Below are positions 50,966 through 56,273 of a stretch of 64,000 nucleotides of DNA, piece after piece (within the stretch, counting starts at the first letter, position 1; each line of letters begins with the position of its first letter). Under the pieces are notes generated by a model that saw only the letters and a list, made by a program, of their open reading frames with translations, did no database searches and was not told the DNA's origin. The position numbers and the translations under genes were made by a program. The DNA comes from Caldicellulosiruptor obsidiansis OB47 (GTDB lineage: Bacteria > Bacillota > Thermoanaerobacteria > Caldicellulosiruptorales > Caldicellulosiruptoraceae): positions 551,501-615,500 of the forward strand of contig NC_014392.1 in the NCBI RefSeq assembly GCF_000145215.1, in the 5' to 3' direction.

Positions 50966-51054
50966 GGCTGCCTCCCTCCTGTTTGATATAATAAAAAAGT
51001 GTAATATTCCATTCAAAAGAAACATCAAAAAACTACCAGGATGGGAGGGCAGCC
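50966..51054 (+). promoter_or_regulatory. Ribosome-site-sequestering inverted repeat of the IS481-like element
   Basis: GGCTGCCTCCCTCCTG (50966-50981) pairs with CAGGATGGGAGGGCAGCC (51037-51054), 16 base pairs with two single-base bulges. The right arm contains the ribosome site GGGAGGG. A TATAAT (50987-50992) lies in the loop, so only transcripts starting outside the element would carry both arms. Confidence 0.75.
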
Positions 51055-51058
51055 TACT

Positions 51059-52195
51059 ATGAATATTATACCATATCATGAACTCAGAAAAATATCTCCT
51101 GAAAAGGCCAGAGAATTAATTCGAAAAGTATTTGAGGCAAATAACAAAAACATATCAAAAACTGCTAAAATATTAGGTGTATCAAGACACACTGTAAGAA
51201 GAGCAGTATATGGTCCTGTTGAGGATAAGTCTAGAAAGCCTAAAACTTGCCCTAAAAAACTTTCTTCTGAGCTTGAAAATCTCATTATCCAAGAGGCTAA
51301 AAAAACAGGATTCAGATACAGACGTCTTTCTCTTTATTTATTCAGAAAATATGGCGTTAAAATAAGTGAAAACACGATAAAATCTATTCTCAAAAGAAAT
51401 AGTGTGCCGAGAAAGACAAGAAAGACGAAAAAGGGAGAAAGAAGTCTTTACGATTATGAGTCTCTCATCCCATTTTCTGAATTTCAGCTTGATACGAAAC
51501 ATCTTTTAGACAAAGAAAGCCTCCCAAAAGAAGTATATGAGCACATGATAAAATACAATCTACCGTGTTATGAGTGGAACATGATAGATGTTGCTACAAG
51601 GACAAGATTTACAGCTTATTCATATGAGCTTTCATCTACTTTTGGTTTTATGTTCATAACATTAGTAGTTTTATGGCTTAGGACACATAATGTAAGAAAC
51701 CCAATAAGGATAAGATTAGATAATGGAGCAGAGTTTTGTGGTGGGAGCGAAAAAAAGCTAAAGGAGTGGAATGAGATGTTGTCATTTTTGGGAGTAGAGC
51801 TAAATCCTATTCCACCAAAAGCAAAACACTTGATGGGTATAATTGAAAATTCACATAGAGCAGATGATGAATATTTTTTGATGATTCATGCTGAAAGATG
51901 CATAACAAAAGACGAATTTATGACAAGAGCTCAAAAATGGCAGGATACGTGGAATTTTTATAGACCTCACAATGGTAAAGGAATGAATGGGAGGACACCT
52001 TTCGAAAAGTTTAGAGATTCAAAAATTCTGGTCTCCTCCCATGTATTTCAATTTCCTACTTTACTTCTTGAAGACTTATTAAAGAAAGTGGGGACTTTTT
52101 ATTCTCTGTTCTGTAATAAATTAGGTGGTAAATATGTCTTCACCACGTGCCAAAATTTACCTTATACAAAGTTTGTAGACTACAGCAAGGCTTAA
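51059..52195 (+). CDS. IS481-like integrase-core transposase
   Basis: A 378-residue transposase with an N-terminal helix-turn-helix (about residues 10-55, KTAKILGVSRHTVRRAV), a second winged region (about 70-125) and an rve/RNase H-like core. Catalytic acids are in FQLDTKHL (about 142-149), RIRLDNGAEFCG (about 219-230) and the glutamate of GIIENSHRADDEYF (about 261). ATG 51059 is set by GGGAGGG; the ATG at 51041 lies in that site. The frame is intact. It ends 160 bases before an amidase gene fragment. Confidence 0.82.
   Translation: MNIIPYHELRKISPEKARELIRKVFEANNKNISKTAKILGVSRHTVRRAVYGPVEDKSRKPKTCPKKLSSELENLIIQEAKKTGFRYRRLSLYLFRKYGVKISENTIKSILKRNSVPRKTRKTKKGERSLYDYESLIPFSEFQLDTKHLLDKESLPKEVYEHMIKYNLPCYEWNMIDVATRTRFTAYSYELSSTFGFMFITLVVLWLRTHNVRNPIRIRLDNGAEFCGGSEKKLKEWNEMLSFLGVELNPIPPKAKHLMGIIENSHRADDEYFLMIHAERCITKDEFMTRAQKWQDTWNFYRPHNGKGMNGRTPFEKFRDSKILVSSHVFQFPTLLLEDLLKKVGTFYSLFCNKLGGKYVFTTCQNLPYTKFVDYSKA
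52151..52167. repeat. 17-bp direct repeat, right copy
   Basis: Identical to 50872-50888. It lies inside the last codons of the transposase reading frame. Confidence 0.75.
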
Positions 52196-52355
52196 TAGTA
52201 ATAATGCCCGAGTTTTGCAGCAAAAAATTATTATCAAATTTTAAACAATTTGATTTTACTGAGATAGAAAGTCAAAAAATTTTTAAAATTTTAGCAAATT
52301 TTTGTGGTGTTTTTTAGCAAAATGTGATATAATACTCTTAAAATATTAATTATGA

Positions 52356-52563
52356 GATATATTGAGAAAAGGTGCACTTATCCCATTTGATAAACAACGC
52401 GGTTGGTATTGTGAAAAAATGCTTTGGTGGTGGAATTGGGGGCAGGCTTGGAGTGTTGCAGATAGTCTAAGATATTGGTTACTTAGTGCAAATAATGCTA
52501 CATATATAGGGAGGTCACAACAGTTGAAAAAAAACAATGCAAAAAGGTATAATTTTGACCAGG
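52356..52563 (+). pseudogene. Amidase gene, left fragment
   Basis: An open frame of about 69 codons follows a stop at 52353. It encodes a tryptophan-rich segment, WYCEKMLWWWNWGQAWSVAD, like the middle of putative amidase-domain (Amidase_6) proteins that attack peptidoglycan. The usual N-terminal half, with the catalytic cysteine, is missing before 52356. The frame ends at an IS607-type element and resumes at 54760. Confidence 0.65.
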
Positions 52564-52572
52564 TGATATTAA

Positions 52573-53184
52573 ATGTTACTAAGTGTACAAAAAGTTAAAG
52601 AGATATATGGCATTAGTCGAAGGCTATTTCCTAAACTGGGAAAAGGAAGGGTTAATAATACCTCTCAGGCTCCCTAAGGGAAGGAGAAGGTATAAAAAAG
52701 AAGACATAGAAAAACTACTTGGCATGATAGAAGAAAAACCAAACCAACCGTTGTTTTGTATGCAAAACTCTCCACTAAAAAGCAAGAAGAGTACCTTAAA
52801 AACCAAATCAGAAGACTTGAGGAATACGCAGAGTCTCAAGGCTGGCAGTATTGAGGTTATATCTGAAATAGCCAGCAAAGTAAAATGAAAACAGGAGAGG
52901 GCTATTAAAACTTTTGAACAAAATCAAAAGAGGAGAAGTTGCAAAAGTTGTAATAGAATATCCTGACAGACTTGCAAGGTTTGGATTTGAATATCTTAAG
53001 TTTTTCATGGAGAGTTTTGGGGTAGAACTTGTAGTGTTAAATGGCAGAGAAAACGAAGAAGATATAAAAGAAGAACTGGCAGAGGACTTAATAGCGGCAG
53101 TATACATCTTTTGCAGCAAGGATTTATTGGCAAAGAGGTGCTAATAAAAGACATGGTAACAGTTCAGGCCAAGCTAATCTTTGA
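52573..53184 (+). pseudogene. IS607 serine transposase TnpA, multiply frameshifted
   Basis: Pieces in three frames assemble into a typical TnpA. They are a MerR-like helix-turn-helix (SVQKVKEIYGISRR, then NWEKEGLIIPLRLPKGRRRY), the serine catalytic motif VLYAKLSTKKQEEYLKNQI, EVISEIASKV, then NENRRGLLKLLNKIKRGEVA and VVIEYPDRLARFGFEYLKFF, and a SFAARIYWQRGANK tail. Frame changes are needed near 52640, 52760, 52850, 52885 and 53100. The gene cannot make an active enzyme in this state. Confidence 0.85.
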
Positions 53185-54691
53185 GGGCAGTGAAGATAAG
53201 CAAAGAGTATTAGACCTTATGAGAAGATGGTCCTCTTGTATGAGGTATGCATATAAGAGGCTTCTGGAAGGGCATAAAAGGAATGAACTCAAAAAGCAGC
53301 TGCAGGGGATTTTCAATCTTAATTCTCGATACGTTGATGATGCGATAATGAAAGCAAAAAGCATTTTGACCTCATGCAAAGAAAGAGGAGAAAATCCCAA
53401 GAAGGTTGTTTTTGGTGGCAGGCAGCTTTTTGAAAAACTCCAGAAGAGGCACATAAACGGTAAAGCGTACAAGAAACTTCAACTTAAGTGGCAGGAGAAG
53501 AGGAAAGGGAATCTGTACTCAAGAGGAGACAGGAGCAAGAAGGGGAATCTCAACACAAGGATTGAGATAGATGAAGATTGTACAAGACTTAGAATCAACG
53601 TAGGAGAAAGGGAGTACGTATATGCGAGAATACAGCCCGGATGGAAGATAAAAGATGGGAGGTATATTGATAGGAATCAACTTCTTGAGGCGATAAGTAT
53701 TTGTGGACAGCCATATTCTGTCCAGCTGAAACTTAAAAGTGGTGTAGTATATGCCTACTTTGCTATTGAAGAAGTTTTTCCTCAGCCTGCGATAACGAGA
53801 GCGAATGGAGTTATAGGGATAGACACGAACGCATATCCGAGGCACGTGGCATGGGTAGAAACAGATGAGCATGGACAGCTTCTGGGATATGGCAGAATAC
53901 CAATGCCAGAACTTGAGAGCGGGAGTTTTGAGAAAAAGGAGTATTACAGGTGGCAGTATGCACACATGATAGTACAGATGGCGAAAGAGAAGCAAAAAGC
54001 CATAGTGATTGAGAGCCTTAGCATAAAAGACAGGGGAAGAAGAGAAGATTTTTCAGGTAGAAGATCAAGACGAATAAGGCATTACTTTGGGTACAGATCA
54101 CTTCTGGAGAAGGTAAAACTTTTAGCAAAGCGAGAAGGGATAGAGGTTATAGAAGTAAACCCTGCATATACTTCGGTAATAGGGATGCTGAAGTATGCAC
54201 CGCAGTTTATGGTGAGCAAGGATGTTGCTAGCTCGTACGTGATAGCTCGAAGAGGGCTTGGCTTGAGAGACAGAATACCGCACAACTATATGATGTTTCT
54301 CGGTAGACTTGATGTAAACGAACTGGAGGAACTGAAGGAGTACGTAAGGAAGGTAGTTAAGAACACATACGTTAGGAAAAAGCAACTCAGAGAGATAGGT
54401 AGAGTGATAAAGTTTTTACAAAGCCTTGAGAGTGAGGCAGAGAGACTATCTGTACCACTGGATGGAACAAGTACAGGTAGTCGTGGCAAAAACCACAATC
54501 TCTGGCAAGTTCTCAAGGTAGCGGTGGTGACTCCACTCTCTCCTGAGAGGGTTTTAAGAGACCTCTCTGTCCTGAAATCGCTTTTGGTTTCGGGGCAAGT
54601 GGGGAAGACCTATAAAGGCGCAAGTTCCTGTTTCTTGGGACAGGGGCTATGGCTTTCCCAAATACCGCCTGCTGGGGCTGGGAAAGCTTGA
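53153..54691 (+). CDS. TnpB-family RNA-guided nuclease, zinc-ribbon-less variant
   Basis: A 512-residue TnpB-like protein with an open frame. The RuvC acids are in GVIGIDTNAYP (D near residue 224), IVIESLSIKD (E near 287) and MVSKDVASSYVIARR (D near 357). Between the second and third acids, where TnpB normally has a four-cysteine zinc ribbon after NPAYTS, there is no cysteine. The C-terminal 70 residues look non-protein-like and lie over the structured right end. ATG 53153 has GAGGTG at 53135. TnpB proteins use omega RNA to cut target DNA. Confidence 0.78.
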   Translation: MVTVQAKLIFEGSEDKQRVLDLMRRWSSCMRYAYKRLLEGHKRNELKKQLQGIFNLNSRYVDDAIMKAKSILTSCKERGENPKKVVFGGRQLFEKLQKRHINGKAYKKLQLKWQEKRKGNLYSRGDRSKKGNLNTRIEIDEDCTRLRINVGEREYVYARIQPGWKIKDGRYIDRNQLLEAISICGQPYSVQLKLKSGVVYAYFAIEEVFPQPAITRANGVIGIDTNAYPRHVAWVETDEHGQLLGYGRIPMPELESGSFEKKEYYRWQYAHMIVQMAKEKQKAIVIESLSIKDRGRREDFSGRRSRRIRHYFGYRSLLEKVKLLAKREGIEVIEVNPAYTSVIGMLKYAPQFMVSKDVASSYVIARRGLGLRDRIPHNYMMFLGRLDVNELEELKEYVRKVVKNTYVRKKQLREIGRVIKFLQSLESEAERLSVPLDGTSTGSRGKNHNLWQVLKVAVVTPLSPERVLRDLSVLKSLLVSGQVGKTYKGASSCFLGQGLWLSQIPPAGAGKA

Positions 54692-54759
54692 AGGGCGGGC
54701 TATAAATACTCCAGCCGCCAAACTCGTGCAATTTTGCACAGTTTGGTTGACCAGGTGGG
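54500..54759 (+). ncRNA. Candidate omega RNA at the IS607 right end
   Basis: GC-rich, hairpin-rich sequence in an AT-rich region, overlapping the 3' end of tnpB. Visible hairpins include CTCTCTCCTGAGAG and CCTGTTTCTTGGGACAGG, and a strong terminal one at 54718-54746 (CCAAACT/AGTTTGG outside GTGCAA/TTGCAC). It ends at the right boundary, so the guide would be read from the amidase flank. Boundaries are estimated. Confidence 0.5.
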
Positions 54760-55007
54760 ATTATAATTCTCAGTTAGACTTTAACTATTTATTGAAACCA
54801 GGAGATATATTATTCTATGATTGGAATTCTGACGGAACATATGATCATTCTGCTATTGTAGTGGTTTATGCCAGAGACCCTAATTCTGGGATAAACGGTG
54901 TTTTACAAGATCAACACACAACAGATAGAAAATGGGCTATATGGCACTTAAAGCCATATAATCTTAATCCTTGGTCTACAATTATATTTGCTGTTAGACC
55001 ACAATAG
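54760..55007 (+). pseudogene. Amidase gene, right fragment
   Basis: Encodes the C-terminal third of the amidase domain: LLKPGDILFYDWNSDGTYDH contains the catalytic-type histidine, and HLKPYNLNPWSTIIFAVRP ends it. An apparent start at 54726 lies inside the element. It is in frame with 52356-52563 after precise removal of the IS607 element. The gene still lacks its 5' part. Confidence 0.75.
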
Positions 55008-55026
55008 GATAGGGAGGAAAAATTTT

Positions 55027-55695
55027 GTGAAAAAAAGAAAATTATTTGTATTAGGTTTATTAGCACTTATTACAATAGTTGCAACTATAATTAGTTATAA
55101 TGCAAAAAGTATTCAGCAATTAAATAATGAGGAGGAAATAAAAAGAGTAGTGAAGAGTGCACTAAATATTTATAGTAAAATTGTGTATCCATCAGAGTAT
55201 ACAAAATCCCCAGATATTAAAATTCCTTCGCAGCTTATAGACAGAAAGATGAATGAAGTTACCCAAGAATGTGAGAAATATTACAGTGCAAAGTCAGGAA
55301 TTTTAGCAAATAAAATAAAGGTTTTTCAAACAGCTGTTTTAGGAGATGCTTATTCACCTTCTGATATAAGGACTGTTGAATGGAAAATAAATAATATAAA
55401 ATTTTTAGAAACAAGGATTGAAGGTGATACAGCAACAGTCATAGCAGATGTATATTGCGAAAACAAAATGATTGCGTTGATTCCAATTGATAATATAAAT
55501 GAAAATGTAAAGCCTGAAGAAATGACAATAGAATATCAGAAAAGGCTGTATGAAGAAACGCAAAAACTTCCAAAAAAATTGGTGACATATAATCCCAAAG
55601 GTGTAATGAGGTATTATTTTAATTTAACAAAAGAAAACGGAATATGGAAAATAACTTCAGAAAACTTTAATTACCTGCCAGGTTATGAGCCTTAA
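55027..55695 (+). CDS. Exported or membrane-anchored protein of unknown function
   Basis: A 222-residue protein with a basic start and one hydrophobic segment (about residues 6-25), then a soluble region. I do not recognise a family. The end has a beta-rich segment with a typical wall/stress lipoprotein-like pattern (WKITSENFNYLPGYEP). GTG 55027 is set by GGGAGG (55012-55017). It follows the amidase fragment by 19 bases and was probably in the same operon. Confidence 0.65.
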   Translation: MKKRKLFVLGLLALITIVATIISYNAKSIQQLNNEEEIKRVVKSALNIYSKIVYPSEYTKSPDIKIPSQLIDRKMNEVTQECEKYYSAKSGILANKIKVFQTAVLGDAYSPSDIRTVEWKINNIKFLETRIEGDTATVIADVYCENKMIALIPIDNINENVKPEEMTIEYQKRLYEETQKLPKKLVTYNPKGVMRYYFNLTKENGIWKITSENFNYLPGYEP

Positions 55696-56273
55696 TATTA
55701 TTTCAACTTCTGTTTTGTTGTATAAAAAGTTTCTATTTAAGGTATGTTAAAAGTTGTGTTAAAATTCAAGCTTCCTTTAGTGACAATAATGAAAAAAGAA
55801 ATAATTAAATAATTCCTACTAATCTGGCTCTTTGTCAAAAAGATGTTGATATTTAGAATTTCACACTACTTTTGACAAAGAGTCTTTTTCTTCTATTTTA
55901 CCTGCAAATCTCCTTTAATCAATATAGACAAAATATGGTCAATCAAGGCTTGTTAAGAATTTTGCACTTCCAATTTATAACGTTAGTTATAAAGTTAGGT
56001 TATATTGTTAATGCATTTTCTAATGCTGGGGACTCCATTTTTCCATTTTGTACGGCATAAGTTCTCTTCCTGTAAGTAAATATTAATTTCTAAAACTTCA
56101 ACAGACTGAAAGTATCCACCTGAATTTACTTCTTGCCTTTTCAATATCATGCTATTTACACATAAAGCGGTGTTTGTAGAAAGAGCTTCCTTAATTCCTC
56201 AGGGTATTTCATATGGACAGAATAAAACTCTGCTTTTTCTGATATTGCAGCAATAAAATCGAGGAGTGAGAAT
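55696..56273. other. Long intergenic region with IS-like remnants
   Basis: 578 bases without a convincing gene. It contains an inverted repeat at 55826-55884 that resembles ISL3-type ends. On the minus strand near 56160-56265 there is a short frame (MKYPEELRKLF) faintly like IS256-type transposases. Neither is proof of an element. Confidence 0.45.
55826..55889 (+). repeat. 15-bp inverted repeat, ISL3-end-like or terminator
   Basis: GGCTCTTTGTCAAAA (55826-55840) and TTTTGACAAAGAGTC (55870-55884) pair at 14 of 15 positions across 29 bases. TTTTTC follows. It could end transcription of the 222-residue protein gene, or be the fused ends of a deleted ISL3-family element. Confidence 0.55.

Follow-up and report, generated by a model that had tools for sequence, protein, structure and literature searches.

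A structured right-end RNA, most likely the omega RNA of a Shine-Dalgarno-targeting IS607 element, shares its pseudoknotted core with putative gene leaders of thermophilic bacteria

The window analyzed here, a stretch of 64,000 nucleotides (nt) from Caldicellulosiruptor obsidiansis OB47 (NC_014392.1, positions 551,501 to 615,500), contains an IS607-family element that carries tnpA and tnpB and interrupts an Amidase_6 gene (PF12671 profile match). We identify a conserved structured RNA that occupies the right end of this element and overlaps the 3′ end of tnpB (54501-54755, + strand). Judging from sequence and covariation, it most likely serves this TnpB as omega RNA, and its guide would begin in the amidase flank. 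The element inserts seamlessly at GGAGG, and the 3′ core of its RNA is also found on its own in front of genes, where it looks like a cis-acting 5′-leader class that the transposon carries as well. Taken as a whole, we consider it quite probable that a Shine-Dalgarno-targeting element, its omega RNA, and a core that also stands free as a leader together explain these observations.

The sequence-only reading had placed a hairpin-rich RNA here, and the structure proved real. The tnpB frame (53111-54691) and the 64 nt between its stop and the element end are GC-rich and fold at -107.1 kcal/mol, far better than a shuffle mean of -88.8 (z = -3.76, 0/200). Across 43 non-redundant right ends, RNAalifold and the named structure together place 70 pairs in 11 helices, two pseudoknots among them, with 97.5% of cells paired; shifting the partner by one column lowers pairing to 50-55%. 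Both-sided changes occur at 19 pairs, compared with 10.3 in shuffles that do not model phylogeny (0/500), so the compensatory changes whose absence would have spoken against an RNA are abundant among copies.

Helix 1 joins the opening TCTGG (54501-54505) to the terminal CCAGG (54751-54755), crossover GG included, and the scaffold closes exactly at the element end. Helices 2-7 make up the 5′ half (54524-54648, +), lie within the tnpB coding sequence, and are supported by covariation and lowered synonymous divergence (pairs 54524-27/33-36, 54537-43/54601-07, 54545-52/61-67, 54568-76/89-97, 54608-11/15-18, and 54623-33/38-48). The 3′ core consists of a variable stem, two pseudoknots, and usually a hairpin. 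Its stem, helix 8 (54652-54687, +), pairs GCTTTCCC (54652-54659) with GGGAAAGC (54680-54687); all 8/8 pairs covary, and the helix is swapped wholesale among copies, from GGCTTTCCC/GGGAAAGCC to GGTTGTTCC/GGAACAACC and GGAGTGCTT/GAGCACTCC. Pseudoknot A (54665-54698, +) pairs CCGCC (54665-54669) with GGCGG (54694-54698) and takes the compensatory forms GCGCC/GGCGC, CCGCT/AGCGG, and TCGCC/GGCGA in relatives. Pseudoknot B (54671-54715, +) pairs GCTGGGG (54671-54677) with CTCCAGC (54709-54715), with GCCGGG/CCCGGC, GCGGGG/CCCCGC, GCCGAG/CTCGGC, and others as compensatory forms. The expected 13-bp hairpin before the boundary is present by folding at 54717-54747 (+); it contains a single G-U pair, and C54725 is bulged. 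Mobile copies in Aquificota (L386, L387, L389, L392; L and G numbers are our labels for loci and genomes) carry a distinct pseudoknot B, GCCAGTG/CACTGGC, which lies outside these counts and is further compensatory evidence. Rfam 15 scans of the element, orphan cores, and Aquificota leaders returned no family over the RNA.

This pattern bears on two readings that would assign the right end another role. If the hairpins were DNA sites only, bound by transposase or recombinase, they would be in keeping with the binding of TnpA to element ends during IS607 transposition (PMC6188088). At the level of DNA, however, nothing would call for two pseudoknots and 19 covarying pairs; helix sequences are freely swapped, and the pattern persists in leaders free of TnpA and TnpB; covariation in elements and TnpB-free cores thus largely refutes a DNA-only role, which we consider very improbable. 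The stable 3′ hairpin could suggest that the RNA terminates transcription or blocks read-through where the element ends, but this role seems scarcely credible: no U-run follows the hairpin, and next come the GG core and the target gene's start codon.

The DNA under part of the 5′ half carries two messages, as indicated by fourfold-degenerate divergence in tnpB of 0.24 where the RNA overlaps (residues ~466-498) versus 0.44 outside this region. Residues ~466-498 are therefore conserved protein and RNA at once. Most relatives stop at about residue 498, and in the window a frame-changing indel in helix 6 carries the open reading frame on through helix 6-8; the final ~25 residues of this frame are unconserved and, by sequence, read as RNA read-through. 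The proposal that the C-terminal residues are translated RNA accordingly holds for the last ~25 residues.

The protein has the features of a TnpB nuclease. tnpB (53153-54691, +; frame open from TTG 53111) matches TIGR01765/TIGR01766, and RuvC residues D238, E301, and D371 (526-residue numbering) are kept in 48, 48, and 47 of 48 full copies. Foldseek matched an AlphaFold model best to Cas12f and retrieved ISDra2 TnpB at E 2.4e-3, a fold match that is only supportive given the low confidence of the model (pLDDT, the predicted local distance difference test, is 61 overall and 22-29 over the last ~80 residues). PDB sequence searches with TnpB gave no matches. A RuvC D-E-D triad thus accompanies a TnpB/Cas12f-like fold in this low-confidence model, and the intact triad is at odds with TldR, a nuclease-dead TnpB-like protein.

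Uninterrupted orthologous sites in three relatives (L047-L049) define both borders of the element. On the left, the junction ..ATAGGGAGG ends at 52514 with the GGAGG target motif (52510-52514, +; core GG 52513-52514); on the right, the boundary falls between 54755 and 54756 (..TTGACCAGG followed by TGGG, a CCAGG/TGGG junction), where the core dinucleotide GG (54754-54755, +) ends the element. More than 80 element copies share this terminal base. A joined-flank query found relatives with the empty site intact, in one case with all 140 nt identical, and GGAGG was intact in 19 of 21 orthologous empty-site comparisons. GGAGG stands in the left flank at 55 of 67 distinct junctions, and five more read GGAGGTAGG, where the script took a later GG. 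When start codons are counted that lie 5-13 nt past the right end and open a frame of 50 codons or more, 49/78 insertions are followed by ATG and 59/78 by any start codon; the background in the window is 22% (ATG) and 33% (any start) for GGAGG sites, and 5.6% and 13% for GG sites. From the left flanks, the spacing to start codons, and the empty sites, we conclude that the target is the Shine-Dalgarno sequence. Survivor bias, through loss of insertions inside genes, can contribute to this enrichment. The IS607 family is described as having minimal target specificity (PMC4058570); this element, with its strong Shine-Dalgarno preference, is unlike that description.

From the GGAGG target and the IS605/IS607 rule, GGAGG at the left junctions becomes the candidate transposon-adjacent motif (TAM). 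The omega RNA would be about 255 nt long, its 5′ half folded within the 3′ part of tnpB and its 3′ half comprising the double-pseudoknot core and hairpin and ending at the GG crossover dinucleotide. Geometry alone puts the flank in the guide position, as the scaffold stops at the right boundary. By analogy with IS607 TnpB architecture, the predicted guide is the ~20 nt of the interrupted Amidase_6 gene that directly follow the element (54756-54775, +; 20 nt as in PMC11061315); with insertion at a Shine-Dalgarno motif, such a guide would include the target gene's start codon. A promoter-like TTGAAA-18-TATAAT (52524-52553, +) lies just inside the left end and reads inward; the TTGaaa/TATAAT motif recurs in 56/69 copies, with 17-nt spacing in 51. 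Its orientation suggests that transcription would start there, run through tnpAB, and exit the right end, so that RNA extending past the element would carry target-gene sequence as a guide. TnpB would process and bind this RNA and, after excision, cleave the GGAGG-flanked empty site, favoring re-acquisition of the element.

The RNA core is not confined to the element; neither this nor the Shine-Dalgarno targeting was noticed in the sequence-only reading. A 62-nt right-end piece (54656-54716) occurs once, element-free, in 8 of 12 genus members, the window's genome included, between uxuA and a glycoside hydrolase (GH2) gene; diverged cores at the same place in two further species (L203, L128) bring the total to ten species (L044:1761-1868, L045, L046, L122-L126, L203, L128). 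Repeats (CTTGAG/CTCAAG) downstream of these cores permit an alternative hairpin in most of the ten. Upstream of the gene that precedes one orphan core, a NiCo riboswitch match (L188:2174-2241, - strand) scores 36.1 bits against a threshold of 37. A covariance model built from the last 112 nt of the element matched 21 of 399 phylum genomes in 10 genera, and 9/9 genomes of one family. Over 84,980 species genomes, the matches listed for a DNA pattern include thermophilic Bacillota, Aquificota, Caldisericum, and others. Many core copies have no TnpB upstream. The clade TnpB profile found no match in G114, G280, G073, or G009, and the general TnpB domain TIGR01766 found none in core-bearing G424, G425, G428, G433, G434, G280, or G073, where completeness of the Aquificota metagenome-assembled genomes is not established. 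An initial view of the uxuA-GH2 copy as a one-off relic is untenable given these core-bearing, TnpB-free genomes.

The genes behind free cores are often central to the cell. One metagenome-assembled Aquificaceae genome (G425) holds 18 cores and no detected TnpB; its cores precede genes matching ribosomal S20 and L32, Hfq, inorganic pyrophosphatase, ThiS, and an M50/RseP-type protease, and others matching an Fe-S assembly protein, FtsZ, TatA, and a TrpB-like enzyme. Cores in other genomes precede genes for EF-G, MreB, TrxB, FtsH, HtpX, RpoA, ACP, Hsp20, L21, and HPF, which were named by sequence inspection and not by profile. The genes directly preceded by free cores in thermophilic Bacillota and Aquificota include fusA, ftsZ, mreB, ftsH, hfq, rpoA, rpsT, and rpmF. 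Among 52 Aquificota copies without the transposon tip, a start codon lies within -25 to +20 nt of the RNA end in 51, and an SD-like (Shine-Dalgarno-like) motif just before the start codon in 36.

These free cores could be passive, functionless relics of decayed insertions at Shine-Dalgarno sites that have not yet eroded. They are positioned exactly where right ends land, a continuum runs from ACCAGG-tipped right ends to tips turned into ordinary Shine-Dalgarno sequences, and some cores of the same genome are very similar (L351, L352, L354, L355). Against this, core divergence at uxuA-GH2 over eight species is 0.035 per site, compared with 0.272 in the upstream spacer and 0.05-0.07 in neighboring coding DNA. 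In 63 TnpB-free cores, 97.7% of cells pair, 14 of 20 pairs changed on both sides, and double-change cells number 257 versus 71 in shuffles (0/500). Pseudoknot A reads CCGCC/GGCGG in 53 of these cores, GCGCC/GGCGC in nine, and CCGCT/AGCGG in one, while pseudoknot B has several sequence types, nearly all fully complementary; the counts are non-circular because the aligning model held no pseudoknots. The htpX leaders of G427 and G430, whose proteins are 92% identical, differ completely in the sequence of helix 8, yet the helix pairs in both, and the hfq leaders of G425 and G429 show compensatory differences in both pseudoknots. All five tip-free cores of G426 (5/5) stand at orthologous genes in G436, and the two G436 copies with a transposon tip have no counterpart in G426. 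The tip-free cores at these orthologous genes, and at htpX and hfq, thus appear to be inherited vertically, and those at hfq may instead reflect independent insertion at the same gene. On this evidence we judge it unlikely that the free cores are functionless.

We favor, with some reserve, the view that the double-pseudoknot core is a widespread new cis-acting 5′-leader class, found before core genes in thermophilic Bacillota and Aquificota and borne by the transposon as a guide-RNA module that makes Shine-Dalgarno insertion tolerable. The core would act as a 5′ leader that presents a ribosome-binding site, and the transposon would carry it so that splitting the Shine-Dalgarno sequence of a gene is tolerated; deletion of the remaining element would leave the leader behind, relic right ends being retained as leaders. 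The alternative is that the omega RNA proper comprises helices 1-7, the terminal hairpin, and the tip, and that the core is an independent leader cassette picked up by some elements. Four right ends from four species (L050, L051, L117, L118) lack exactly the core but retain all of these other parts, and free cores lack helices 1-7, two observations that together portray the core as a cassette. Yet nearly all copies carry the core, including those in distant genera with TnpB, and for three of the four copies without it, the DNA examined holds no intact TnpB; we therefore regard independent acquisition as possible but doubtful. The core-less right end L050 still accompanies an encoded, intact TnpB, and the core may accordingly not be essential to the omega RNA.

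Several points weigh against the picture of a tolerated Shine-Dalgarno element with an active guide system. Beyond the four core-less right ends and shuffle controls blind to phylogeny, the element tip CCAGG is only a weak Shine-Dalgarno sequence, so that it may not rescue the gene downstream. The window copy has a broken tnpA, as do its full-length siblings in the same genome. Transcription, formation of a TnpB ribonucleoprotein, and cleavage are steps that we infer.

The element otherwise conforms to the IS607 family. tnpA (52573-53144, +) is frameshifted, and its two fragments match MerR_1, Resolvase, and NF033518, as expected of a serine-recombinase TnpA with an N-terminal MerR-type helix-turn-helix; it is intact (197-202 residues) in copies of other genomes (e.g., L052, L054, L056, L072, L096). 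Insertion leaves no target duplication and uses a GG dinucleotide crossover, with joined flanks that match empty sites at up to 100% identity. The right part of the amidase gene (54756-55007, +; PF12671) is uninterrupted in L047-L049. An Rfam scan of 52200-55800 gave no intron match, in disagreement with an IStron. The window's genome (2.53 Mb, one contig) holds eight copies of the element, and relatives, including Thermoanaerobacter-type genomes, hold many more. In shorter elements of 1.7-1.8 kb (L042, L043, L064, L067, and similar), the stretch from the left end to tnpB yielded no tnpA, and these are apparently TnpB-only derivatives. An intact IS481-like transposase gene lies just upstream of the element (51041-52195).

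If our interpretation is right, one RNA is common to gene expression and a TnpB system, and transposon ends have repeatedly been domesticated as leaders. A TnpB clade that has had neither a structure nor a defined omega RNA gains a predicted TAM (GGAGG) and a complete scaffold backed by covariation. Before essential genes of thermophiles, a structured leader RNA outside Rfam 15 comes to light that sequence and fold tie to a transposon guide RNA. The direction of exchange also becomes testable, from transposon RNA end to gene leader or from gene leader to captured guide-RNA scaffold. The section on novel non-coding RNAs in a 2014 survey of Aquificales describes no such motif, and as far as we checked, this core before essential genes without a cutting protein has been described nowhere. 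We also found no precedent for IS607 at Shine-Dalgarno sequences or for a TnpB with a leader RNA in a literature search from which most subscription journals and preprints were out of reach.

The omega RNA of ISDra2 TnpB lies at the right end of its element, overlaps the 3′ end of tnpB, and takes its guide from the flank, within IS200/IS605 transposition chemistry. The RNA described here shares the right-end position, the tnpB overlap, and the flank as guide, and differs in transposition chemistry, TAM, and fold. Ribosomal-protein leaders and riboswitches likewise place structured 5′ leaders directly before start codons; here, in contrast, one core precedes dozens of unrelated genes, and an Rfam match is absent. 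Our interpretation of the right-end RNA is supported by analogy with experimentally known IS607 TnpBs, which combine a right-end RNA, a GG core, and an AG-rich TAM at the left end. The RAGATH-18-derived right-end RNAs (reRNAs) of the ISFba1 TnpB (PMC11061315) similarly have two pseudoknots and a ~20-nt guide past the element end, with AG-rich TAMs (AGGAG/GAGGG) that match the left-end flank. Here, by comparison, TnpB is longer (~480-526 residues) and of TIGR01765 type, and the scaffold lies mostly inside the tnpB coding sequence; RAGATH-18 (RF03064) matched neither the window up to E = 10 nor five genomes (G000 and G007 among them), in searches whose controls were silent too. ISXfa1 (PMC10711439) is also a serine-recombinase element with a GG crossover and a right-end RNA across the boundary, and its TAM, GGG, differs from the GGAGG of Shine-Dalgarno motifs. 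In TldR and its guide RNA (PMC13418256), TnpB-system parts have been domesticated for host gene control with both protein and guide kept, whereas here the RNA core persists where TnpB is not detected. IStrons (PMC4227781) offer a parallel in which an insertion sequence carries an RNA module expected to spare the host gene the effects of insertion; they splice out through a group I intron, whereas the RNA described here would serve as a replacement leader.
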